From contig NZ_CP018099.1 in assembly GCF_001886815.1 (NCBI RefSeq), positions 4,524,501 to 4,588,500 on the forward strand: a stretch of 64,000 bases of DNA, read 5' to 3'. Below are positions 22,565 to 58,812 of this stretch, piece by piece. The notes below the pieces were generated by a model that made no database searches, was not told the DNA's origin, and was given only the letters and a program-made list of their open reading frames with translations. Source of the stretch: Caldithrix abyssi DSM 13497. GTDB taxonomy: Bacteria; Calditrichota; Calditrichia; Calditrichales; Calditrichaceae. The first letter of the stretch is position 1, and each line of letters begins with the position of its first letter. Position numbers and translations under genes: made by a program.

Positions 22565-24817
22565 TTATTTTAAATCGGTAATGTAAGCCCGATAACCGAC
22601 GTTACGAATGGCTTTGGCCACTTTTTCGGCATTTTCCGGGCAGAGGGCAATAATGGCTCCACCGCCGCCACCGCCGGTCAGTTTGGCGCCTAAAGCGCCG
22701 TTGTTGCGGGCAATTTCTACTAACTCTTCGATTTCCCTGCCGGAAACCTGAAGGGCGTTTAACAGGCCCTGGTTGATATTCATCAACTGTCCGAGGTGTT
22801 CCAGATCGTAGTTTTCGATGGCTTTGGCTGCTTCCAGCACCAGCTGATCGATTTCTTTAAAAATGTGATTGTACAAACGCTTGTTGTTCTCCCAGGCCCG
22901 ACGCACGCGCGAAACCATTTTGGCCGTTAAACTTTCGGACCAGGTCAGACCGATTACAATGCGAATGGGCTGCGGAACACGTAATTCTTGAATTTTGGGC
23001 GGATTGCCTTTTTGAAAGAGTAAAAATTTGCCATAAGTGGCCAGCGTATTGTCAATTCCCGAAGCGGTACCATGCACAAGCTGCTCTGATTTGTAGGCCA
23101 GTTGAGAAATTTCTTCTAAACTAAGCTTAATCTTAAACTTTTCGGCCAGAGCGCGAATAATGGCCACCGCCAGCGAGGCCGATCCGCCAAGCCCCATGGC
23201 TCGCGGTACGTAAGGAAACACTTCAATTTTCATGTTCTCTTTCTCTAACCCCAACTCGTGTAAAATGAGGCTGAGCGAATTAAAAATGGAGTAGCGATAT
23301 TCTTTTCCTTTTTGCAGGCGCTCTTCAACGCCCCAGCGGGAAATAATCAAATGGATGCCGTCTTCATCGCTGTCGGAAACCATGGCCTGCATGGCCAGGG
23401 GGATGGGCGCCGCAATGGCGTGCGCGCCGTAAACCACGGCATGCTCGCCAAGCAGAATAACCTTGCCGTGACCGGTAGGAATCTTCTGTTCGGAAGGAGC
23501 AAGGTACAGCTCGGCATTGGGCTTTTCTTCTTTGACGGCCAGTTCGTTGATGATTTCTCTAGCCTTCCACACTTTAATTTCATTGGTTTCGATTAACCGT
23601 TCCACAACCGTTTCAAAGATTTCGGGCGTGGCGCCGGCCGCCATGGCCACACTGCGGGCGTGCAGGCTCATGTGACCGCGCTGGATACCTTCTGTGGCCA
23701 GCGCGCGAATAGCCGAAAGGTTCTGGGCCAGCCCTACCGCAGCCAGCACCTGCGCCAGCTCAGCGGCCGAAGAGATGTTCAGCAGATGCAGGGCAATGGC
23801 CACCGTCGGATTGCTCTCCAGAGGGCCGCCAACAATCCCCACACGGATGGGAAGTTCAATAAAGCCGAGCAGGTCGCCGTTTTCCGCTTTTTCCCAGCGG
23901 GTTAACGAAGTGTACCTTCCGTTGCGCGCGGCGTAAGCGTGAGCGGCCGCTTCAATGGCCCGCCAGTCGTTACCGGTTGCAATCACCACCGGATCGATAC
24001 CATTCATTATTCCCTTGTTGTGCGTGGTAGCCCGGTAAGGATCGGCCGCGGCAAATTCGTAAGCCAGAATGATCCCGTCGCGCACTTGCTCTCCGGAGTA
24101 CCCTTTTCCTTCTAATAATTTAACCGGAATCCGGCACTGCGCCCTGGCCAGAGAGCGATCGGCCAAGTTGGAGAGAATGCGTAAAAAGACTTCGCCGCCG
24201 GTGATCTTTTCGATGAGCGAAGCCACGCCCTCGCACATACTGTTAACCAGATTGGCGCCCATGGCATCGCGCGTGTCCACCAACAGGTGAACCACCACCA
24301 TGTCGCCGCGGCTGGATGCGCCGGATAAAATACGCACTTCCAGATCCTGAACGCCTCCGCCACGCGCCACCATTTTAGGATGTAAACTGTTGGCCAGATT
24401 GATGATCTCTTCTTTGTTTTGTAAAATGGCCTGCTTGGCAGCCGACGGATTTTTAACATCCACAATCTGAATTTGACCGATTAAAATGGGCCCGGTGTAC
24501 TCAGCCGTAAAGCCCCCCGCCTGACGGACCACTTTGGCCGCCGAGCTCACGGCCGCCACAATGGAAGGCTCTTCCACCACCATGGGCACCACGTAATCTT
24601 TGCCGTTTACCTTAAAGTTCAAACCCAGCCCCATGGGCAAACCGAAAACGCCAATCACGTTTTCGATCATTCGATCAGAGTCTTCGCTACGCAACAAATG
24701 GTTGCCGTTTTTTAGCCTGATGTACTCTTCTTCGCTGATAAAATTGCGTTCTCGTAATATTTTTAAACGTTCCTGAATGCTCAATCTGTAAAAATTTGCG
24801 ATTCGCGAACTCGGCAT
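22565..24817 (-). CDS. fused class II HMG-CoA reductase and mevalonate kinase
   Basis: 750 residues from the ATG at 24817, chosen because AAGGA lies seven bases upstream; an ATG at 24847 lacks a site. Residues 1-425 are HMG-CoA reductase: SRIANFYRLSIQERL, the ENVIGVFGLPMGLGLNF substrate loop, catalytic Glu in VEEPSIVAAVSSAA, cofactor motif DTRDAMGANLVN, GGPLESNPTVAIAL, and catalytic His in GHMSLHARSVA. After a short linker (EEKPNAELYLAPSEQ), residues about 440-750 are a GHMP kinase: GHGKVILLGEHAVVYG, PRAMGLGGSASLAVA, GTASGIDNTLATYG and AKLTGGGGGGAIIAL, all typical of mevalonate kinase. One chain would reduce HMG-CoA to mevalonate and phosphorylate it. All active-site residues appear intact in both halves. 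Confidence 0.93.
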   Translation of the reverse strand: MPSSRIANFYRLSIQERLKILRERNFISEEEYIRLKNGNHLLRSEDSDRMIENVIGVFGLPMGLGLNFKVNGKDYVVPMVVEEPSIVAAVSSAAKVVRQAGGFTAEYTGPILIGQIQIVDVKNPSAAKQAILQNKEEIINLANSLHPKMVARGGGVQDLEVRILSGASSRGDMVVVHLLVDTRDAMGANLVNSMCEGVASLIEKITGGEVFLRILSNLADRSLARAQCRIPVKLLEGKGYSGEQVRDGIILAYEFAAADPYRATTHNKGIMNGIDPVVIATGNDWRAIEAAAHAYAARNGRYTSLTRWEKAENGDLLGFIELPIRVGIVGGPLESNPTVAIALHLLNISSAAELAQVLAAVGLAQNLSAIRALATEGIQRGHMSLHARSVAMAAGATPEIFETVVERLIETNEIKVWKAREIINELAVKEEKPNAELYLAPSEQKIPTGHGKVILLGEHAVVYGAHAIAAPIPLAMQAMVSDSDEDGIHLIISRWGVEERLQKGKEYRYSIFNSLSLILHELGLEKENMKIEVFPYVPRAMGLGGSASLAVAIIRALAEKFKIKLSLEEISQLAYKSEQLVHGTASGIDNTLATYGKFLLFQKGNPPKIQELRVPQPIRIVIGLTWSESLTAKMVSRVRRAWENNKRLYNHIFKEIDQLVLEAAKAIENYDLEHLGQLMNINQGLLNALQVSGREIEELVEIARNNGALGAKLTGGGGGGAIIALCPENAEKVAKAIRNVGYRAYITDLK

Positions 24818-24873
24818 TTTTTTGTCCTTGTGTTTTTGTTCTTTCATCTAAATCTACTTAAATATGTAAAAAA

Positions 24874-25938
24874 TTAAAAAGATTTTTCAAGGCGCACGCC
24901 TTCGGTAGCCACATCCACGTCCAGCGGAAAATAACCGCTGTTTTTGATGATGGTGATCGCCTCCGAAAACCTCTGGCGGTCATCGGAAAAGATTAAGCCG
25001 ATGTCTCCGCTACCGGCGCCAGATGGCTTGTAAACCACGCCCGCTCGGTGCGCCAGATCGGCCAGTTTTTGATGAACGCCTGAGATAATCGGCATTCCGC
25101 TTTGATCGCCCAGGTTTTTGAGGGTAATGTAAAATTCACGAACCTTTTCCAGAAAAAGTTCCACCTGCCTCTGTTCAAAAGCCTGCAGCCCCTGAACGCT
25201 GAGCGCTTTTAATCTTTCCATTATCGGATCGTACACCTCCGGACGCTTCTCTTTTAATTGTTTAACGCCGCCTACCAGTTTAGTGGTGGAAGCGCTTTTA
25301 CCGGTGAAAACAGGGCGGAAATACAGCCCCGCACAGGGCGAAACAGGTTGTGGCAGTTTGTTCACAGGATCGTTCTCGTAAATCCTTTCGTAATGCAAAT
25401 AACCGCCAAAATAGCTGGCCGCCACATCAATACCGCTGCCCATTTTACCCTGCGCATGGTGATGCGCGCTTAAAGCAAGCCGAAAAATCTGCGCTTCCGT
25501 CATATCCAGCTTTGAAATGACAACCAGCCCTTTAACCAGCGCGGCGCAAAAAGCGGCGCTGGAGCCAAAGCCCATTTTGCTGTGAAATTGTTCAGCATAA
25601 AAGGCGTCGGTATTGATTGCAATGCGCAGGCCCTGGTTTTTCAAAGGATCAGGCAGCCGGCTGTACACATATTCCATGATTCCGGCAAAGAGAGTTAATT
25701 TACGCAGCGCTTCCTGCCCCAGAGCAGGATCAAAACGCACATGCGCGTTTGGTAAGATCACAAAAGGCAGCTCATGTAAGTTCAATGAAGGCGCCGAAAA
25801 GACAAACTCATTGCCCGCCAATCTTCCAATTTGCACGCTGGCCCGAACATCCACCGCGCAAACCAGGGCGGGGGCATCTTCAAGAACGGCGTATTCGCCC
25901 AGCAGAATCATCTTTCCCGGAGCTGTTACTCGAATCAT
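24874..25938 (-). CDS. phosphomevalonate kinase
   Basis: 354 residues, GHMP kinase superfamily. It converts 5-phosphomevalonate to the diphosphate. Motifs: VTAPGKMILLGEYAVLEDAPA (the E after LLG is typical), KMGFGSSAAFCAALVKG (phosphate loop), GSGIDVAASYFGGYL, and YKPSGAGSGDIGLIF near the C-terminus. The pattern LLGEYAVLE with late PSGAGSGD identifies the phosphomevalonate rather than mevalonate kinase branch. Its start overlaps the stop of mvaD by ATGA, implying translational coupling, and the fusion gene follows. Confidence 0.88.
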   Translation of the reverse strand: MIRVTAPGKMILLGEYAVLEDAPALVCAVDVRASVQIGRLAGNEFVFSAPSLNLHELPFVILPNAHVRFDPALGQEALRKLTLFAGIMEYVYSRLPDPLKNQGLRIAINTDAFYAEQFHSKMGFGSSAAFCAALVKGLVVISKLDMTEAQIFRLALSAHHHAQGKMGSGIDVAASYFGGYLHYERIYENDPVNKLPQPVSPCAGLYFRPVFTGKSASTTKLVGGVKQLKEKRPEVYDPIMERLKALSVQGLQAFEQRQVELFLEKVREFYITLKNLGDQSGMPIISGVHQKLADLAHRAGVVYKPSGAGSGDIGLIFSDDRQRFSEAITIIKNSGYFPLDVDVATEGVRLEKSF

Positions 25939-26921
25939 TCGTCTGCCTCCAGAATCCGGGCATCAGGACCGGGCTTATTGCTTACCACCTCACGGATTCC
26001 CGGAATGGACTCCAGCATTTCTCTAACCTCGTTTTCATCTTCCGGTAAACAGAGCACCTTGATCTGCGGTCCGGCATCAATGGTAAAGTAAGCAGGGGTT
26101 CCACGCCGTCTTAGATCGCGTACGGCGTGCATTGCTTCTACGGTGACGCCATTCCAGTACAAAATACCCGGATTACTGCTTAAAGCCAGGGCATGCATTT
26201 TTAAACAGCTGTATTCGCTGAGCTCGCCTAATCGTTCAAAATCGCGATCAAGGATGGCCTGGCGCATGGCTGTTAAATCGGCGTGCTGAGCGTCGATCCA
26301 GGCCTGGTAATAAGGCGAGGTAGTTTTACTGAGATTCATGCCGGCGGTGGAACCAATTTTTTTGGCCGCGCCTGAGGTAATGCCAATAAGCAGACGGATG
26401 TCCCAGTGGGCTGGCGGAGCAATTGGTTCGGCAAAGGCGTCGCTGCCGTCTGCGCTTTGACCGGCGTGCATTTCAACAAAACCGCCCGGAATGGAACGCG
26501 CCGCCGAACCCGAACCCTGACGCGCCAGAACGGACAATTCTTTGCGTGACAAAGAAAGATGAAGCGCCCGCGCTGCGGCCAGCGTTAAGGCGGCAAATCC
26601 GGAAGCAGAAGAGGCCAGACCAGCAGCCGTAGGAAAGTTATTATGAGATTGGATGACCGCTTTGTGATTTATGCCGGCAAGCTTGCGAAGAACATCAAGG
26701 AAGCGAGACGTACGCCCTGTTTCTTCAGGCGAAGCTGTTTTATCATTTAAAATCAATTGATCTGTCTGAAATTGCGGACTGAATTCGATTTCGGTCTCTG
26801 TCCACAGCGCACTAAGCGTTAGCGAAATAGACCCCACCGCAGGTAAATTTAAACGTTCATCTCGTTTTCCCCAGTATTTAATAAGCGCGATATTGGAATG
26901 CGCCCTGGCTTTTGCCCGCAT
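25935..26921 (-). CDS. mvaD: diphosphomevalonate decarboxylase
   Basis: 328 residues. It performs ATP-dependent decarboxylation of mevalonate diphosphate to IPP. Motifs: the family start ARAHSNIALIKYWGKRDERL, PAVGSISLTL, the phosphate loop FPTAAGLASSASGFAAL, GSGSAARSIPGGFVEM, and the catalytic-Asp segment FTIDAGPQIKVLCLP. First gene of the mevalonate operon; the promoter should lie in the AT-rich 26922-27060 segment. AGGAG precedes the ATG at 26921. With the three downstream genes, HMG-CoA to IPP/DMAPP is complete; HMG-CoA synthase and thiolase are not in the window. Confidence 0.93.
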   Translation of the reverse strand: MRAKARAHSNIALIKYWGKRDERLNLPAVGSISLTLSALWTETEIEFSPQFQTDQLILNDKTASPEETGRTSRFLDVLRKLAGINHKAVIQSHNNFPTAAGLASSASGFAALTLAAARALHLSLSRKELSVLARQGSGSAARSIPGGFVEMHAGQSADGSDAFAEPIAPPAHWDIRLLIGITSGAAKKIGSTAGMNLSKTTSPYYQAWIDAQHADLTAMRQAILDRDFERLGELSEYSCLKMHALALSSNPGILYWNGVTVEAMHAVRDLRRRGTPAYFTIDAGPQIKVLCLPEDENEVREMLESIPGIREVVSNKPGPDARILEADE

Positions 26922-27122
26922 TTATTTCTCCTAAAATGTTGAATTTTAAATTTAAAAAAAATAATTACAATTTGCGAATATGATGTGCGAAAAACGGGAA
27001 ATAGGCCTCCCAAACACCACTTTTATTACCAGCGTTTCAAAATAAGTTTCAATTTTAATCATTTTTTTCTAACTTTCCGTTAAACAAAAAAAGTAGAATT
27101 GAGTTCAAAGCTTGAGGATTGA

Positions 27123-27731
27123 ATGAAGATTTTAATTGCCACGGGGAATAAACATAAACGGGAGGAAATCCAGCAGATCTTAAACGGATTGGAAGTGGAG
27201 CTGATTTCCATTGACCAGTTGCCTGAAAGTATTGAAGTAGAAGAAACGGGCGAAACATTTACCGAAAACGCCCGCTTGAAGGCAGAGGCCTACTTTGAGT
27301 TGACGGGGCTTCCTGTGCTGGCAGATGATTCTGGCCTGGAAGTTCCGGCCTTGAATAATGAACCTGGCGTACGTTCGGCGCGCTATGCAGGCGAAAATGC
27401 GGATTATTTGAAGAACAATCAATTACTGCTGGAGCGGATGAAAGACCTGGCCTCATCAGACAGGAAGGCTCGCTTCCGTTGTGTGATGTGCTTTAAGACA
27501 TCAGAAGGCGAATGGTTTTTTGAAGGAATAACAGAAGGGGAAATTTTGCAGGAGTTTCGCGGCTCAGGAGGCTTTGGTTACGACCCGTTGTTTTATGTTC
27601 CTGCTTTGCAAAAGACCTATGCCGAGTTGACTCCGGAAGAGAAAAACCGAATCAGTCACAGAGGGCTGGCTTTAAAGAAATTTAAAAAATTTTTAAAAGA
27701 ATACCTGAAAAAATTTGACAAACGTCAATAG
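27123..27731 (+). CDS. rdgB: XTP/dITP diphosphatase (HAM1/RdgB)
   Basis: 202 residues, usual length. It hydrolyses non-canonical purine triphosphates (dITP, XTP) to monophosphates, keeping them out of DNA and RNA. The start KILIATGNKHKREEIQQIL contains the family's SxNxxK-like loop (here TGNKHK). PVLADDSGLEVPALNNEPGVRSARYAG is present as its DDSGLEV and GVRSARYAG parts; further motifs are FRGSGGFGYDPLFYVP and NRISHRGLALKKF. Divergent from mvaD. A tRNA cluster begins 53 bases downstream. Confidence 0.93.
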   Translation: MKILIATGNKHKREEIQQILNGLEVELISIDQLPESIEVEETGETFTENARLKAEAYFELTGLPVLADDSGLEVPALNNEPGVRSARYAGENADYLKNNQLLLERMKDLASSDRKARFRCVMCFKTSEGEWFFEGITEGEILQEFRGSGGFGYDPLFYVPALQKTYAELTPEEKNRISHRGLALKKFKKFLKEYLKKFDKRQ

Positions 27732-27784
27732 AAGTTTTAAATTTGTGAGCTCTAATTTAAATTAGAGAGCAACGATTGTCCCAT

Positions 27785-27861
<77 letters not shown>

Positions 27862-27865
27862 CGTT

Positions 27866-27939
<74 letters not shown>

Positions 27940-27947
27940 CATGAGAT

Positions 27948-28022
27948 GGTGAGTGTAGCTCAGTTGGTTAGAGCACCAGATTGTGGCTCTGGGGGTCGTG
28001 GGTTCAATTCCCATCACTCACC
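27948..28022 (+). tRNA. tRNA-His (GTG anticodon)
   Basis: 75 bases counted from the extra G at -1 that pairs with C73, the identity feature of tRNA-His. Acceptor GTGAGTG/CACTCAC, D arm TAGCTCAGTTGGTTAGAGCA, anticodon loop TTGTGGC with anticodon GTG, T arm GTGGGTTCAATTCCCAT. CCA not encoded. Confidence 0.94.
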
Positions 28023-28073
28023 CACTTGAAAAAAAGTTCTTACCTGTTTTTAGGTAAGAGTGTGAACATAGAC

Positions 28074-28146
28074 GCTCCCATCGTCTAGAGGCCTAGGACA
28101 CCGCCCTTTCACGGCGGCGACAGGGGTTCGAATCCCCTTGGGAGTG
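28074..28146 (+). tRNA. tRNA-Glu (TTC anticodon), parent of the downstream repeat array
   Basis: 73 bases. Acceptor GCTCCCA/TGGGAGT, D arm TCGTCTAGAGGCCTAGGACA, anticodon stem CCGCC/GGCGG with loop CTTTCAC giving TTC, T arm AGGGGTTCGAATCCCCT, discriminator G. CCA not encoded. Intact in all arms. Its 3' half (from the second strand of the anticodon stem) is repeated, in altered form, twelve times immediately downstream. Confidence 0.96.
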
Positions 28147-28156
28147 CCTCAAGAAA

Positions 28157-28184
28157 GAGCCCGCCAAATGGCGGGCTTTTTTAG
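28157..28184 (+). terminator. intrinsic terminator of the tRNA cluster
   Basis: Perfect 8-bp stem AGCCCGCC / GGCGGGCT with AAAT loop and a T6 run. Begins about 12 bases after tRNA-Glu. The same hairpin, with variants, recurs at the corresponding place in each downstream repeat unit. Confidence 0.9.
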
Positions 28185-28308
28185 TTTCAAACAAACGAAG
28201 CGTTGTACGAATTGAGCCGGAATGATTGGACGAAATGACCGGAACTCTACACGAAAGGTTCGAGTCAGAGGCAAATACTTTCAAAAAGAACGCATGCTGA
28301 TTTTTCGA

Positions 28309-28407
28309 CGGCGACAGGGGTTCTCCCACAGGGACTCCTGCGGAGGAATCCCCTTGGGAGTGCCTCATGAAAGAGCCCGCCAAATGGCGGGCTTTTTTAG
28401 TTTCAAA
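28309..28407 (+). ncRNA. candidate small RNA, first unit of the array (representative of 12)
   Basis: From the CGGCGACA marker to the end of the terminator. The core folds as CTCCCA / TGGGAG (outer 6 bp), a 2x2 internal loop, GGGA / TCCC, and a CTCC / GGAG cap with a three-base loop TGC or TAC. A terminator hairpin AGCCCGCC / GGCGGGCT with T6 follows at about 28373-28400. A weak promoter candidate in units of this kind is TTGAGT, 17 bases, then an A-rich -10 (GAAAAT or AAAAAA). Transcription is unproven; the call rests on conserved structure plus terminator. Confidence 0.4.
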
Positions 28408-28956
28408 CAAACGAAGTTTTGTGCGAATTAATCCGGAATGACTGGCCGAAATGCCCCGAATTCTACACGAAAGGTTTGAGTCAGAGGCAAATACTTTCGA
28501 AAATAACGCATGCTGATCCTCCCGGCGGCGACAGAGATTCTCCCAAAGGGACTCCTACGGAGGAATCCCCCTGGGAGTGCCTCAAGAAAAAGCCCGCCAT
28601 TTGGCGGGCTTTTTTAGTTTCAAACAAACGAAGCGTTGTACGAATTGAGCCGGAATTAATGGCCGAAACGACCGGAACTCTACACGAAAGACTTGAGTCA
28701 GAGGCAAATACTTTCGAAAATAACGCATGCTGATTTTTGACGGCGACAGGGGTTCTCCCACAGGGACTCCTACGGAGGAATCCCTTGGGAGTGCCTCAAG
28801 AAAAAGCCCGCCATTTGGCGGGCTTTTTTTGTTTCAAACAAACTAAGTTTTGTGCGAATTAAGCCGGAATGACTGGCCGAAATAACCGGAATTCTACACG
28901 AAAGGTTTGAGTCAGAGGCAAATACTTTCAAAAAGAACGCATGCTGATTTTCACGA

Positions 28957-29964
28957 CGGCGACAGGGGTTCTCCCACAGGGACTCCTACGGAGGAATCCC
29001 CTTGGGAGTGCTTCTGAAAAAAGACCGCTTTTTGGGCGGGCTTTTTGTTTTCGTGATTGGGGATGTTCAGCAGATTTGAGTAAGAGATAAGTCTTTTTAA
29101 AAAAACGCATGCTGATTTTCACGACGGCGACAGGGGTTCTCCCACAGGGACTCCTGCGGAGGAATCCCCTTGGGAGTGCTTCTGAAAAAAGACCGCTTTT
29201 TGGGCGGGCTTTTTTGTTTTAGAGATTGGTAATGTTCCGCAGATTTGAGTAGGAGATAAGTCCTTTCAAAAAAACGCATGCTGATTTTTCGACGGCGACA
29301 GGGGTTCTCCCACAGGGACTCCTACGGAGGAATCCCCTTGGGAGTGCTTCTGAAAAAAGACCGCTTTTTGGGCGGGCTTTTTTGTTTTAGAGATTGGTAA
29401 TGTTCCGCAGATTTGAGTAGGAGATAAGTCCTTTCAAAAAAACGCATGCTGATTTTTCGGCGGCGACAGGGGTTCTCCCACAGGGACTCCTACGGAGGAA
29501 TCCCCTTGGGAGTGCTTCTGAAAAAAGACCGCTTTTTGGGCGGGCTTTTTGTTTTCGTGATTGGGGATGTTCAGCAGATTTGAGTAAGAGATAAGTCTTT
29601 TTAAAAAAACGCATGCTGATTTTCACGACGGCGACAGGGGTTCTCCCACAGGGACTCCTACGGAGGAATCCCCTTGGGAGTGCTTCTGAAAAAAGACCGC
29701 TTTTTGGGCGGGCTTTTTGTTTTCGTGATTGGGGATGTTCAGCAGATTTAAGTAAGAGATAAGTCTTTTTAAAAAAACGCATGCTGATTTTCACGACGGC
29801 GACAGGGGTTCTCCCACAGGGACTCCTGCGGAGGAATCCCCTTGGGAGTGCTTCTGAAAAAAGACCGCTTTTTGGGCGGGCTTTTTTGTTTTAGAGATTG
29901 GTAATGTTCCGCAGATTTGAGTAGGAGATAAGTCCTTTCAAAAAAACGCATGCTGATTTTTCGG
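28957..29964 (+). repeat. short-unit block of the array: six units of exactly 168 bp
   Basis: Units start at 28957, 29125, 29293, 29461, 29629 and 29797, giving a strict 168-bp period over 1008 bp. In these units the post-hairpin sequence is CTTCTGAAAAAAGACCGC with terminator stem imperfect (GACCGCTTTTTGGGCGGGC). Two spacer subtypes occur in the order A-B-B-A-A-B: A has GTGATTGGGGATGTTCAGCAG, B has AGAGATTGGTAATGTTCCGCAG (quoted in part). The flanking blocks (28147-28956 and 29965-30548) use the long spacer beginning GTTTCAAACAAACGAAG. Confidence 0.88.
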
Positions 29965-30633
29965 CGGCGACAGGGGTTCTCCCACAGGGACTCCTGCGGA
30001 GGAATCCCCCTGGGAGTGCCTCAAGAAAAAGCCCGCCATTTGGCGGGCTCTTTTAGTTTCTAACGAACAAAGCGTTGTACGAATTGAGCCGGAATTAATG
30101 GCCGAAACGACCGGAACTCTACACGAAAGACTTGAGTCAGAGGCAAATACTTTCGAAAAGAAAACATGCTGATCTTCCCGGCGGCGACAGAGGTTCTCCC
30201 AAAGGGACTCCTGCGGAGGAATCCCCCTGGGAGTGCCTCAAGAAAGAGCCCGCCATTTGGCGGGCTTTTTTAGTTTCAAACAAACGAAGCGTTGTACGAA
30301 TTGAGCCGGAATTAATGGCCGAAACGACCGGAACTCTACACGAAAGACTTGAGTCAGAGGCAAATACTTTCGAAAAGAAAACATGCTGATCTTCCCGGCG
30401 GCGACAGAGGTTCTCCCAAAGGGACTCCTGCGGAGGAATCCCCCTGGGAGTGCCTCAAGAAAAAGCCCGCCATTTGGCGGGCTCTTTTAGTTTCTAACGA
30501 ACAAAGCGTTGTACGAATTGAGCCGGAATGACTGGAACTCTACACAGGCAGACGAAAAACCTTCAAAAACGACTGAAACAGCCGCTCAAAATACACCCCC
30601 CTGATTTATTATAGTCAAATATTTTAATAATAA

Positions 30634-30739
30634 AGTTATTAACAATATGTTAATAACTGTAGAGGGTGTGGATATGTGGATAACTCATTTTTTACACACC
30701 TAACTCCTTTCTTTTTAATATGTTAATTATTGTGGATAA
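30634..30739. promoter_or_regulatory. cluster of three DnaA-box-like sites beside an AT-rich palindrome
   Basis: Two perfect and one near-perfect copies of the complement of the DnaA box TTATCCACA within 73 bases, adjacent to a 25-bp AT-rich palindrome and the AT-rich run 30601-30660. This is the layout of a DnaA-binding locus with an unwinding-like element. No dnaA, dnaN or other origin-associated gene is nearby and gene orientation does not flip here, so a titration or regulatory site is as likely as an origin. Confidence 0.45.
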
Positions 30740-30840
30740 CTTTTTCGCCTATTTTTTGAGATATTTTACCTTGTTCTACCCTGATATTCGAGAGTCTGTA
30801 TTTTAACAGCTCTTATCTTACTTAATCGGAACTAAGGTAA

Positions 30841-30929
30841 ATATGACGGGAAGCCTTTTTTTGCTCTCTTACCGAAGGTCATACTATCTGTATGCCTTTA
30901 TGGGGGGGCCGAAGGTCTTCCCGCCATAT
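30841..30929 (-). ncRNA. structured noncoding end of the IS110 element; candidate bridge RNA
   Basis: Immediately 3' of the transposase. The ends pair over 13 positions with one mismatch (ATATGACGGGAAG at 30841-30853 against CTTCCCGCCATAT at 30917-30929). Inside, CCGAAGGTC occurs twice (30872-30880, 30909-30917), and CATAC/GTATG (30880-30894) forms a small hairpin. IS110-family elements encode a structured bridge RNA in a noncoding end that pairs with target and donor DNA; location 3' of the gene is typical of the IS1111 group. Assignment is inferred from position and structure only. Confidence 0.35.
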
Positions 30930-30944
30930 CTCAAATTGTTGCTT

Positions 30945-32186
30945 TTAGGCTGCTTTATTTGATTTTTTATAGCCTTCTATGTAGAAACTATCATCTCTTA
31001 CTAATGCAAAAATAATGGCTAATATCTTTCTGGATAACGCCGTTAAAGCCTTGGCGCTGGCCATCCCTTTCTCCTTATGTACCTGATAAACTTCTTGTAA
31101 GATACCTCTACTTGCATTGATGGCTATATAAAAAAGAGCTTTTCTTAATAAACTCCGACCGCGTTTGCTTATGTGATGTTTACCTTTATGTTGGCCAGAA
31201 CTGACTTCATACAGGTTTAATCCCGCTATCTTCTCTAACTCACGATAACTTTTATATCTGCGGATATCTCCTAACTCTCCTATTAAAATGGCTGCGATTA
31301 TGGGTCCTATCCCTTTTATGGATAATATGTTCCTGCTGTATGGCACTTCTTTTAAATAATTCTCTATCTCATCCTTTAGTGACTTTTGATAAGATTCTAA
31401 ACGATCTATCTGATCAAGATGTATCTTGATCTCCATTACAATGGACCGGGTTCCTTCTTTGATGCCTCCGCTCATCTTAGCAGCTTCATATAAAGCAAGG
31501 GCCTTTTCTTCACCTAATCGGTTTTTACTTACTGACTTTATTAGCTCTGTTAGCTTTGTTAAGCCTAAATCCAATATGAATTGAGGTAAAGTATAATGAG
31601 CCAAAAGATAACGTGAAGTCTTTGTAGTTAAATCTCTCATGACCTGAGAGAATTCCGGAAATATCTTAAATAACTGTCCCTCAATTCGATTATAACTCCT
31701 TCGTAGATCTTCAAGTATTTTCTCTCTTAAATGAACCAATTCGCGTAATTCCGCAAAAATTCCCTCTGGGATGATTACTGTTAAATATTTGTTTAATTCT
31801 ATTATATCTGCTATGACCTTTGGGTCTTTTTTATCTGTCTTATTGGGACTATTGTCCGTTAATTCTTTCAGGCGCTTGGTATGCATCGGATTTATTTGTA
31901 CAATCTCATAGCCCCTTCGATGTAGATAATGAATGAGCGCAAGCCCATAGCTGCCAGTGGATTCCAGGCCAAATAAACAATTCTTAAGACCGGTCTTTGC
32001 TCTGAAGCTTTCTACTTTTTTTAAAAAATATTCGAATCCTTTACCTGTGTTAAAAAACTTAAACACTTCTAACTCCTGACCATCTTTTGTACGTGCATAA
32101 CCGTAATTAAATTTTTTGCCTATATCCACTGTAACTAATAAGGTTTCTTCGTTGAATTTTCTCTCTTTTTTGTTTATTTTCCCCAT
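30945..32186 (-). CDS. IS110-family transposase
   Basis: 413 residues. The N-terminal RuvC-like DEDD domain shows the acidic residues in LVTVDIGKKFNYG, FGLESTGSYGLALI and NKTDKKDPKVIAD. The C-terminal Transposase_20 domain begins at the helix-hairpin-helix ILSIKGIGPIIAAILIGELG and contains the family Ser in EVSSGQHKGKHHISKRG, which precedes LRKALFYIAINASR. These enzymes act with a bridge RNA and do not leave long inverted repeats, so the element boundaries cannot be fixed from one copy. GGAG precedes the ATG at 32186. It looks intact and may be active. Confidence 0.93.
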   Translation of the reverse strand: MGKINKKERKFNEETLLVTVDIGKKFNYGYARTKDGQELEVFKFFNTGKGFEYFLKKVESFRAKTGLKNCLFGLESTGSYGLALIHYLHRRGYEIVQINPMHTKRLKELTDNSPNKTDKKDPKVIADIIELNKYLTVIIPEGIFAELRELVHLREKILEDLRRSYNRIEGQLFKIFPEFSQVMRDLTTKTSRYLLAHYTLPQFILDLGLTKLTELIKSVSKNRLGEEKALALYEAAKMSGGIKEGTRSIVMEIKIHLDQIDRLESYQKSLKDEIENYLKEVPYSRNILSIKGIGPIIAAILIGELGDIRRYKSYRELEKIAGLNLYEVSSGQHKGKHHISKRGRSLLRKALFYIAINASRGILQEVYQVHKEKGMASAKALTALSRKILAIIFALVRDDSFYIEGYKKSNKAA

Positions 32187-32634
32187 GACTATGCTCCTTT
32201 CTTTTTTTTTAAATCAGCTTACAATTTAAGGAGTATAGTCTTTTCTTTCATCCTTTTGTTGACAACTATAATATAGTAAGCTTTTGCCTGTGGAAACTAC
32301 TTGCCACAAAAAACTTTGCAACCAGAGGCAGGCCATGGAATAAGAATGCAGAATAAATCAACGGTGTCGGATTGGGAACTTCTGCGTTTGATGATTTTGC
32401 TTTGTTAAGGGAAGAGAAGGAGCGCTCTGTCAGAGCGCTCCATTTGTGCGGCGGAGGTCATGGCCCGGGGCGTTGCCCCGGGCCAACTAACCCCATCTAT
32501 TTTAAAATCGCAAACCAATTAGCCGCAATACGCTCTCCCAAACAATAGGAATTAATGCTTTTTGTCATTAACTTTTAATACACATCAGATTTTTTGCCGC
32601 AGTGGTCTGAAAAAAATACCAGCCTTTTTAACTC
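32187..32634. other. spacer upstream of the IS110 transposase
   Basis: No gene. Contains AT-rich sequence with TTGACA-like and TATAAT-like parts near 32240-32275 that could drive nothing on the minus strand with certainty. A two-hairpin repeat at 32419-32484 is listed separately. The right end of the IS element probably lies here but shows no recognisable terminus. Confidence 0.4.
32419..32484 (+). repeat. two-hairpin intergenic repeat, copy 1
   Basis: GGAGCGCTCTG-T-CAGAGCGCTCC (32419-32441, perfect palindrome), then a linker CGGCGGAGGTCAT, then GGCCCGGGGCGTTGCCCCGGGCC (32462-32484, 10-bp stem). The same two hairpins with the same linker recur in reverse orientation at 62061-62126. Probably a REP/BIME-like element. 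Confidence 0.7.
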
Positions 32635-32662
32635 AAAAAGCCCGACATACGTCGGGCTTTTT
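32635..32662. terminator. bidirectional intrinsic terminator
   Basis: AAAAAGCCCGAC-ATAC-GTCGGGCTTTTT, a perfect 12-bp stem with A and T runs on both sides. Ends the minus-strand calcium-repeat protein gene 31 bases after its stop codon. Confidence 0.9.
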
Positions 32663-32692
32663 CGGTTGTTTTATTTGGGGGGGGTAGAAGGA

Positions 32693-33193
32693 CTATTTGA
32701 TGCCTCGTTTAGCGTTGCCTTTGGGGCCGGTGCCGTCACATTCGCCTGTTCCAAGGCCCGTTCCCTGTGTGGCGCCCTGCATTTTACCTTTGCCCAACTG
32801 ACGACCGGTGCCATCCTGAGGACGAACATAATCCGGGTCCTGACCATTGGGAATGCCGTCGCCGTCCGAATCGATGGCGTTGTCGTTAATCCCGTCGCCG
32901 TCCAGATCAACAAAGCCGGCGTTGCTGTTGCCCTTGCGCATTTTGGCCCCGGTGTAATCCGGATCCATTCCGTTGGGAATGCCGTCGCCGTCTGCATCCG
33001 GCGCGTTGTCATTGTAACCGTCGCCGTTGAGATCCACAAAGCCTTTGACCTGGCCCTGAGCGCCGTTCATAACTTTAGATTGGTATTTGAAACCATGACG
33101 ATATTGGTTTTGCACCTGTAAAGAGTCCTGTGCAAAAACGTTGCTGGCAAAGAAGATTGCCACTAAGCCTAAGATTGCGAGTAAGTTCTTCAT
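32693..33193 (-). CDS. small exported protein with DxDGDGIPNG calcium-binding repeats
   Basis: 166 residues. Signal peptide MKNLLAILGLVAIFFASNVFA, cleaved before QDSLQ. The mature protein has two pairs of loops of thrombospondin type 3/EF-hand character: VDLNGDGYNDNAPDADGDG and VDLDGDGINDNAIDSDGDG, each followed by IPNGxDPDY. The Asp/Asn spacing fits Ca2+ coordination. The C-terminal 40 residues are Gly/Lys-rich and low complexity. A strong AAGGAGG site precedes the ATG and a terminator follows. Role unknown; possibly cell-surface or matrix. Confidence 0.8.
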   Translation of the reverse strand: MKNLLAILGLVAIFFASNVFAQDSLQVQNQYRHGFKYQSKVMNGAQGQVKGFVDLNGDGYNDNAPDADGDGIPNGMDPDYTGAKMRKGNSNAGFVDLDGDGINDNAIDSDGDGIPNGQDPDYVRPQDGTGRQLGKGKMQGATQGTGLGTGECDGTGPKGNAKRGIK

Positions 33194-34122
33194 TTTGAAC
33201 CTCCTTGATTTTTGGTTTTACTTTAATTCAATTTCGCTATTAATAATGTCAAAAGCCGTGCCAAAAAATTTAATGCAGTTTAAAGCGTTGAAATTAAAGG
33301 TCTTATAAATAATGAGTTTTTTACGTCCCATGCGGCTTCCCGACAGGCCGGTCGTTTTAAAGTACCGCAAGGTCGATTTAACCTGTACCTAAGCAAATCA
33401 GGAGCGAAAGAATTATTAAATGACTTTTTGACAAATGAAAACAAATTGTAAAATTTTAGGCATCACGCCGACCTCTTTTGTTCAAAAAGCAATGCTGAGC
33501 AAAGCCTGGCGTTTGCATACCAATGGATTCCGCTTATATCCAATTCCAAATCATGGCCAATTACCTGGAGCAATTACACAAAATGAGGATTTGATAAATT
33601 GCCTGGCATCACAATAAGAATAAATTTAAAGAGTCCGCTCTTAAAAGGTATTATTATCGAATTTCATTTAAATGGGTCTATTGTTTTTATTTAAATTACA
33701 TAAAATATATTCGTGAAATTCGTGGTTTTTATACTGAACTCATTTAAAGTAAGTTTTACAATCATTGCTGAAAATTCATATAACATAACATATCTCCAGG
33801 AGTGTAAAATTGATTTTAAGAAGTAACATAGAGTTCTGCAAAATGTAAATTTTAGTGTCATTTCGAGGAGCGTAGCGACGAGAAATCTTCTGTTTTTGTA
33901 GATGTTAAAAGATTCCCAATCCTGATGAATCGGGATTCCAAATGATCTTTTTGTGCATTTTGTAGAACTCTAAGAGGTAACAGAATAAAGAGGCAAGGTT
34001 TTAGGATGGACGATCGGGCGAAAAAAAGGCGGATTTTAATGGCAAGCATTTGTTTTGAATTTACTATGTGCTTAAATTCGCTATTGTATTAGGTCAATTA
34101 TATAAACTGAAAGGAGCATCAA
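33194..34122. other. 0.93-kb spacer with MITE copy, no gene supported
   Basis: A 60-codon open frame on the plus strand at 33435-33617 has no ribosome-binding site and no recognisable motif and is not called. MITE family 2 copy 2 occupies 33829-33972. The rest is AT-rich and should include promoters for the divergent neighbours. Confidence 0.5.
33819..33982 (+). mobile_element. MITE family 2, copy 2 (144 bp)
   Basis: The element is 33829-33972, the same length as copy 1. Terminal inverted repeats are TAGAGTTCTGCAAAATG and the complement of TAGAGTTCTACAAAATG. It is flanked by AGAAGTAACA (33819-33828) and AGAGGTAACA (33973-33982), a 10-bp target duplication with one difference. Interior GTCATTTCGAGGAGCG...GAGAAATCTTCTG matches the reverse complement of copy 1 with few differences in the first half and more in the second. 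Confidence 0.85.
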
Positions 34123-58415: not shown

Positions 58416-58812
58416 TGTGAAGTTTTTTAGGATATGTCAAATTCTTGTTTGGAAAAAATTAAATCCCGTAGGGATTGATGAGAATAGCGCGGCAGTTCAC
58501 TGCCGGGAAAAGGGAAACCACACAAATGTAAAAATGTCCCGGAGGGACATCTGAATTTCCATCCCGCTGGTTTCAGCCGTCCCCACGGGACGGGATTGTG
58601 ATCTGGTTCGGTGCATTTTCTTAGTGTGAAGTTTTTGTAGATGTGTCAAATTCTTGTTTGGGAAAAAATTAAATCCCGTAGGGATTGTTGAGAATAGCGC
58701 GGCAGTTCACTGCCGGGGGAAGGGAAACCACACAAATGTAAAAATGTCCCGTAGGGACATCTGAATGTCCATCCCGCCGGTTTCAGCCGTCCCCACAGGA
58801 CGGGATTTAGTT
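58416..58812. repeat. 209-bp tandem duplication in a spacer
   Basis: Copy 1 is 58416-58624 and copy 2 starts at 58625 and matches until about 58812. Both begin TGTGAAGTTTTT and contain GTCAAATTCTTGTTTGG, AAATCCCGTAGGGATTG, AGCGCGGCAGTTCACTGCC and ATGTCCCG(T/G)AGGGACATCTGAAT, each a small palindrome. They end in CAGCCGTCCCCAC(A/G)GGACGGGAT. Copies differ at a handful of bases. The ATCCCGTAGGGAT and GTCCCGTAGGGAC palindromes are REP-like. No gene is seen from 58386 to 59073. Confidence 0.85.

Follow-up and report, generated by a model that had tools for sequence, protein, structure and literature searches.

A tRNA gene followed by tandem repeats that hold its own 3′ end is known from the tyrT operon of Escherichia coli, where about three such units stand behind a different tRNA from the one considered here; to our knowledge, the tyrT repeats carry no hairpin insert. 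A second precedent comes from phages. The GIY-YIG nuclease SegB cleaves tRNA genes internally, with a preference for the motif RAWTSGAAC, which boosts cleavage without being essential, and the tandem amplification of tRNA-Tyr together with segB in phage T6 requires SegB, its active site, and recombination genes (PMC13096335). Tiny mobile palindromes are represented by the mitochondrial double-hairpin elements, repetitive hairpin-forming elements, and GC clusters (PMC2800124, PMC4478555) and by the palindromes of Volvox organelles (PMC2670323), with conserved-stem double hairpins and insertion of one palindrome into another. In bacteria, short palindromes that cluster about an enzyme gene include the REP sequences with their RAYTs, which are tyrosine (IS200/IS605-type) transposases, the CGTC palindromes, for which no transposase is known, and the Rickettsia palindromic elements (PMC3733652).

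The locus described here lies in a stretch of 64,000 nucleotides (bases 4524501-4588500, hereafter the window) of the 4.98-Mb single-contig genome of Caldithrix abyssi DSM 13497, in which a Pro-Arg-His-Glu cluster of tRNA genes is followed, behind Glu, by a tandem array. It resembles tyrT in that the tandem repeats hold the 3′ end of the tRNA in front of them. With SegB and T6 it shares, when its relatives are included, the stand-alone GIY-YIG nuclease beside tRNA genes, the tandem units of tRNA and nuclease, and the match of RAWTSGAAC to the T-arm GATTCGAAC. However, SegB belongs to a phage in which an intact tRNA is amplified under selection with no palindromic insert, whereas the present system is found on a bacterial chromosome, with broken, hairpin-bearing tRNA copies and small UPF0213-like GIY-YIG proteins. 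The double-hairpin elements, GC clusters, and Volvox palindromes likewise consist of tiny palindromes, but they reside in organelle genomes, with neither tandem partial tRNA copies nor a linked nuclease shown. The likeness to REP/RAYT lies in the REP-like palindromes that surround some of the GIY-YIG loci away from tRNAs; the RAYTs, in contrast, are not GIY-YIG proteins, and the inserts described below target tRNA loops and show no GTAG or CGTC tag.

The passages found in the C. abyssi genome paper describe a different 18-nt palindrome and are silent on these arrays (PMC5317091). Among open-licence papers, we found none with the combination of chromosomal, tRNA-derived units, loop-tip hairpins, a GIY-YIG ORF, and arrays at many tRNAs in the FCB group, and none that joins GIY-YIG with "repetitive extragenic palindromic".

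Architecture of the tRNA-Glu Locus

When the array behind tRNA-Glu(TTC) is divided at each tRNA 3′ end, exactly 12 head-to-tail units result, at 28148-30453 (Table 1); Tandem Repeats Finder detects arrays of period 217 and 168 across 28130-30529, with scores of 1092-1904. The units are of two types, A (214-217 bp) and B (168 bp), which differ in spacer and terminator and follow one another as four A, six B, and two A units. In each unit the tRNA part extends from the 3′ strand of the anticodon stem through the 3′ end and is followed by a terminator-like GC-rich hairpin, imperfect in the six 168-bp units, and a run of T's. A 22-bp insert, TCCCACAGGGACTCCTGCGGAG or a near variant, is present in all 12 units at the centre of the T-loop, between TTC and GAAT (TTC^GAA), with zero tRNA bases lost. 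The T-stem changes found among the unit copies are uncompensated. As in tyrT, each of the 12 units repeats the terminal ~19 bases of the tRNA in front (GAATCCCCTTGGGAGTGCC or a near variant), here within a tRNA part that is longer and split by the insert.

Table 1. Features of the tRNA-Glu locus (window positions)
Feature	Position	Strand	Remarks
tRNA-Pro(TGG), tRNA-Arg(TCT), tRNA-His(GTG)	27785..28023	+	conserved upstream cluster; ARAGORN call and synteny in relatives
Intact tRNA-Glu(TTC), array parent	28074..28148	+	ARAGORN; Rfam tRNA 59.2 bits
tRNA-Glu terminator-like hairpin, recurring in all units	28158..28185	+	–
Unit 1, type A, 216 bp	28148..28363	+	T-loop insert 28324-28345
Unit 2, type A, 217 bp	28364..28580	+	insert 28541-28562
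Unit 3, type A, 214 bp	28581..28794	+	insert 28756-28777
Unit 4, type A, 217 bp	28795..29011	+	insert 28972-28993
Unit 5, type B, 168 bp	29012..29179	+	insert 29140-29161
Unit 6, type B, 168 bp	29180..29347	+	insert 29308-29329
Unit 7, type B, 168 bp	29348..29515	+	insert 29476-29497
Unit 8, type B, 168 bp	29516..29683	+	insert 29644-29665
Unit 9, type B, 168 bp	29684..29851	+	insert 29812-29833
Unit 10, type B, 168 bp	29852..30019	+	insert 29980-30001
Unit 11, type A, 217 bp	30020..30236	+	insert 30197-30218
Unit 12, type A, 217 bp	30237..30453	+	insert 30414-30435
Truncated tail: terminator and start of type A spacer	30454..30536	+	genome match 4554986-4555036

A preliminary description of this DNA had reported a tRNA-Glu gene followed by 12 tandem units with an altered tRNA 3′ end, which ARAGORN, Rfam, Tandem Repeats Finder, and the unit split confirm, and a common 22-bp insert, which indeed occupies the same T-loop point throughout. 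To the 12 units the distinction of the two spacer types (A ~217 bp, B 168 bp) has to be added. Each unit was also said to have its own hairpin and terminator; the terminator is there, if imperfect in the type B units, but the supposed single hairpin is really a pair of adjacent ones. The parallel drawn with tyrT is fair as to geometry and goes no further: cmscan of 24000-34000, up to E = 1, gives no match to the RtT RNA family, and we know of no tyrT counterpart of the 22-bp insert. The description had overlooked that the insert is a double hairpin, that the genome has further arrays, and that relatives carry linked GIY-YIG genes.

As to the surroundings, an Rfam scan of 24000-34000 with E up to 1 returned nothing credible except the four tRNAs. 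A strong hairpin, TCTTACCTAAAAACAGGTAAGA, is located between tRNA-His and tRNA-Glu at 28038-28059. Just past the array, an AT-rich stretch (30610-30760) contains two exact DnaA-box-like TTATCCACA sites (30675 and 30731); the GC-skew shows no clear turn across the window. About 0.4 kb past the array, an IS110-family transposase gene (PF01548, PF02371) occupies 30945-32186 on the minus strand; IS110 elements favour palindromic or REP-like targets. Further away, at 58416-58807, a 210-bp repeat is present in two copies that are rich in short palindromes (AAATCCCGTAGGGATT, CGGCAGTTCACTGCCG, TGTCCCGTAGGGACA).

Double-Hairpin Structure of the Insert

The insert is composed of TCCC(A)(C/A)AGGGA and CTCCT(G/A)CGGAG, two back-to-back hairpins with 4-bp stems and 3-nt loops, which is the arrangement of the double-hairpin elements. 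The stems are invariant across the 12 copies, and the variation is confined to loop bases. In a gap-free alignment of 15 distinct inserts from this genome and from relatives, 98.3% of the cells are paired, a percentage that follows in part from selecting the inserts visually as double hairpins; such selection does not account for the variety of compensating stems. Five of the eight stem pairs have changed on both sides, and the covariation amounts to 0.51, compared to 0.155 ± 0.034 for shuffles (0/500) and ≤0.154 for slid controls. Ungapped double hairpins are enriched around the tRNAs of the genome (22 versus 2-7 in shuffles), a count that stems mainly from the Glu-TTC and Ser-TGA arrays, whereas elsewhere in the window there is no enrichment (4 versus 0-4).

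Within the 4.98-Mb genome, the 22-bp insert occurs nowhere beyond the 12 array copies (12 forward, 0 reverse), and its donor is therefore not visible. The same element is nevertheless found at unrelated sites, as expected for mobility of the double-hairpin type, namely in T-loops that belong to different tRNAs and, in relatives, at dispersed positions, the evidence being these positions and not an observed jump.

Arrays at Other tRNAs and in Other Species

Mutilated copies or arrays accompany eight of the ~43 tRNAs of C. abyssi: Glu-TTC, Glu-CTC, Ser-TGA, Ser-CGA, Ser-GCT, Asn, Cys, and Lys. The survey covered stretches around 43 Rfam tRNA matches, in which partial copies were sought, so that copies far away may be missed. 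Behind Glu-CTC there are three 3′ copies whose T-loop holds TGCgcaGCATCCtgtGGA. Ser-TGA has five upstream copies with a double hairpin in the anticodon loop and, downstream, two copies in which anticodon loop and T-loop each hold an insert, together with a partial third with an anticodon-loop insert. Upstream of Ser-CGA, between this gene and the neighbouring Ser-GGA gene, lie about nine 5′ halves with a D-loop insert. In the copies of Ser-GCT and Asn a single palindrome links two loops, and in the seven downstream copies of Cys TCCCGCCATTGCGGGA bridges the anticodon loop and the T-loop; a single remnant accompanies Lys. The 13 insert junctions all fall in loops of the cloverleaf (chance ~8e-5), and the insert stems vary between loci through compensatory changes. 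Several of the arrays are of the 5′-half type, upstream of the tRNA and with no GIY-YIG gene nearby.

A DNA pattern search of 84,980 species for one version of the T-loop insert gave 24 loci, all in the FCB group as labelled in the records: Bacteroidota, Ignavibacteria, Melioribacteraceae, Marinimicrobia, Balneolaceae, Kryptonia, and one Calditrichota-class genome. Many or most of these loci immediately follow the intact parent tRNA (Pro, Val, Met, Ser, Glu, Thr, Ala, and others), some of them in tandem. In some relatives of the family the 22-mer is dispersed, with 33 copies in one genome (G007, ≤1 mismatch). A preference of the dispersed copies outside tRNAs for the centres of other palindromes is suggestive, being clear in ~3 of ~19 cases (L080, L082, L092), which are possibly related to each other. 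At the tRNA-Glu locus of relatives (L152-L170), several draft contigs end right at tRNA-Glu, as expected if arrays at this place break short-read assembly.

GIY-YIG ORFs beside tRNAs

A small GIY-YIG ORF is found within ~150 bp of the insert in 8 of the 24 T-loop-insert loci. Among 29 GIY-YIG loci selected as the top match of most genomes, without regard to tRNAs, 13 have a tRNA within 300 bp, against an expectation of 0.3. When the tRNA-Glu locus is compared across the phylum, the ORF stands right behind tRNA-Glu and its terminator in ten relatives (G001, G002, G007, G009, G011, G016, G018, G019, G023, and G033), and in five of these (G007, G011, G016, G019, and G033) the tRNA-Glu 3′ part, terminator, and GIY-YIG ORF or ORF start recur in tandem, a hairpin standing in for the anticodon arm of the tRNA part. 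At both the tRNA-Glu and the tRNA-Cys loci of relatives, the ORF is placed between the intact tRNA and a hairpin-bearing copy. Hairpin-bearing units with no GIY-YIG ORF are present at tRNA-Glu of G015, and the tRNA-Glu locus is clean in G004, G008, G012, G027, and G032.

The tRNA-Cys locus of G012 has two ~300-bp units of ORF and palindrome-bearing tRNA 3′ end, which look identical across the displayed sequence; G017 shows the same layout, and the tRNA-Cys array of C. abyssi resembles this unit minus the ORF. C. abyssi itself has six GIY-YIG ORFs besides the UvrC-sized one. Two of them lie directly behind array-bearing tRNAs, intact at tRNA-Ser(CGA) and broken by stops at tRNA-Asn, so that the SegB-like placement of a nuclease ORF beside a tRNA is seen in relatives and in this genome. 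At the tRNA-Glu locus of the window there is no such ORF. The array spacers contain neither a GIY-YIG ORF nor a recognisable remnant at significance (best E 0.18), and BLAST of the spacers against the same-genus locus yields tRNA and trivial matches only.

The tRNA-linked proteins belong to PF01541, with ORFs of about 80-95 aa, and have no NCBIfam name. Their solved sequence relatives are the UPF0213 (YhbQ-type) proteins 1ywl (E 4e-8) and 1zg2 (E 1e-5); the tRNA-linked proteins are remote from SegB. A tree of the GIY-YIG proteins, examined for target-specific clades, is weakly supported.

Other GIY-YIG ORFs are situated inside REP-like palindrome arrays (TCGTCGAAATGACA, CTGAGCGTAGTCGAAG, GTCATTCCCGCGAAAGCGGGAAT), at G000 C1:598236-601457, 3821916-3825134, and 4016103-4019327 (L028, L026, and L030). 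Around the non-tRNA GIY-YIG ORFs the palindrome density is 1.67 per kb versus 0.21 further away, a ~8-fold difference that is confounded, as the near regions are mostly intergenic.

Proposed Mechanism

We consider it probable, with appreciable room for doubt, that the array is a non-autonomous derivative, amplified in tandem, of a system of mobile elements which resides on tRNA genes and involves tRNA-targeting GIY-YIG nucleases. A complete unit of such a system would consist of the terminator, a stand-alone small GIY-YIG ORF, and the tRNA 3′ part with a single or double hairpin in one arm or loop; it would sit immediately behind the intact tRNA and could repeat in tandem. The nuclease would cut the tRNA gene at a hairpin arm, either in the T-loop (TTC^GAA) or in the anticodon or D loop. 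Repair of the break would then duplicate the piece from the cut to a neighbouring homology, by which the functional tRNA would be kept with a partial copy alongside. A short palindrome would fill the cut in the copy, destroying the target site and fixing the copy as a dead, uncuttable remnant, and the copies would multiply through unequal exchange. At tRNA-Glu of C. abyssi the nuclease ORF would have been lost, leaving 12 passive units, presumably with no function for the host. Because the spacers hold no remnant of an ORF, the derivation of this array from the ORF-bearing form rests on synteny.

A coincidence of motifs bears on the putative cleavage of tRNA-gene DNA by the tRNA-linked GIY-YIG proteins. 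Read on the other strand, RAWTSGAAC is the tRNA T-arm GTTCGAATC; the parent tRNA-Glu matches it at 28126-28134, as do the T-arms of five more of the eight parent tRNAs. The motif is missing from all 12 array units because the insert splits it. This match, a comparison made in the present analysis, fits the units being cut-proof copies. In the units of G001, G007, G019, and G033, however, the hairpin substitutes for the anticodon arm and the T-arm is intact, so that an insert blocking a T-loop cut cannot be the whole story and more than one target position must exist.

Alternative Explanations

Slippage and template switching at the extruded arms of hairpin-rich tRNA genes could also make partial copies, add palindromes at the loop tips, and amplify the result as a neutral satellite, with no dedicated enzyme involved. 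The location of the junctions in loops agrees with such an origin, as do the uncompensated T-stem changes, the block-wise homogenised spacer types, the dispersed copies of relatives that are centred in other palindromes, and the arrays of C. abyssi that lack a GIY-YIG neighbour (Glu-TTC, Glu-CTC, Ser-TGA, and Cys). Slippage alone, however, does not predict a near-identical 22-nt insert at different tRNAs and in different phyla, and the GIY-YIG ORFs are strongly concentrated at array sites; we regard this explanation as unlikely, although it deserves consideration. Among the four ideas offered by the preliminary description, a satellite and a recombination product at the tRNA 3′ end come closest to the present results. 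The other two, small RNAs processed from transcribed units and decoys for tRNA-processing enzymes (or for tRNA-cutting nucleases), find no support and are given a low probability. The terminator-like hairpin of each unit would suit such a function, and the unit RNA is predicted to fold as a stable rod in which CUCCCA of the insert pairs with UGGGAG of the acceptor 3′ strand (z = -6.1). Against this, the only sigma-70-like promoter is located at 27715 and none inside the array (the lineage may use other promoters), terminators are present in every unit and imperfect in six, and the T-stem changes are uncompensated. No equivalent acceptor pairing was seen in the unit sequences of the other arrays, inspected by eye and unfolded, and we read the rod as a coincidence that comes from the Glu acceptor sequence.

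Integrative elements classically insert at tRNA 3′ ends, and such an end is restored in each unit, as it would be in a row of att sites produced by repeated integration of a site-specific element. The putative core is nevertheless broken by 22 bp in 12 of 12 units, no integrase gene was recognised by eye among the ORFs in or beside the array, the 168-217 bp units carry no cargo, and 5′-half arrays exist upstream of other tRNAs. This reading is mostly refuted, and we consider it very improbable. The preliminary description had also allowed that relatives might lack any related array, although such arrays are in fact common, and that the array might be an error of assembly. Such repeats are difficult to assemble, contigs of several relatives stop at the locus, and the exact number of units could be in error. 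An artefact as such is scarcely credible, since the genome is a finished single contig, the unit copies differ among themselves, and a like architecture appears in independent assemblies of other species, including the same locus in several relatives.

Implications

The recurrence of the arrays and their GIY-YIG neighbours suggest a kind of DNA parasite of tRNA genes that has apparently not been described before. Tiny palindromes, DHE-like elements, REP/RAYT, and SegB are each already known, and there is a fair chance that their combination represents a new class. A broader proposal, which we put forward tentatively and hold with less than even confidence, is that of a mobile-element class of the FCB group in which small GIY-YIG nucleases open tRNA genes and other palindromes at the loops of their hairpin arms, mobilise miniature hairpins into loops, as RAYTs do for REPs, and tandemly amplify tRNA fragments.

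Few genes are under as much constraint as tRNA genes, and about one in five of the tRNA genes of C. abyssi has mutilated copies alongside. If the process is nuclease-driven, it would be the chromosomal counterpart of the phage SegB amplification and would offer a candidate mobiliser for bacterial palindromic repeats with no known transposase. It would also explain many of the small GIY-YIG genes that adjoin tRNAs in FCB genomes. The T-loop TTC^GAA would then be a testable cut site, and the inserts would constitute a natural record of insertion at the tips of DNA hairpins.
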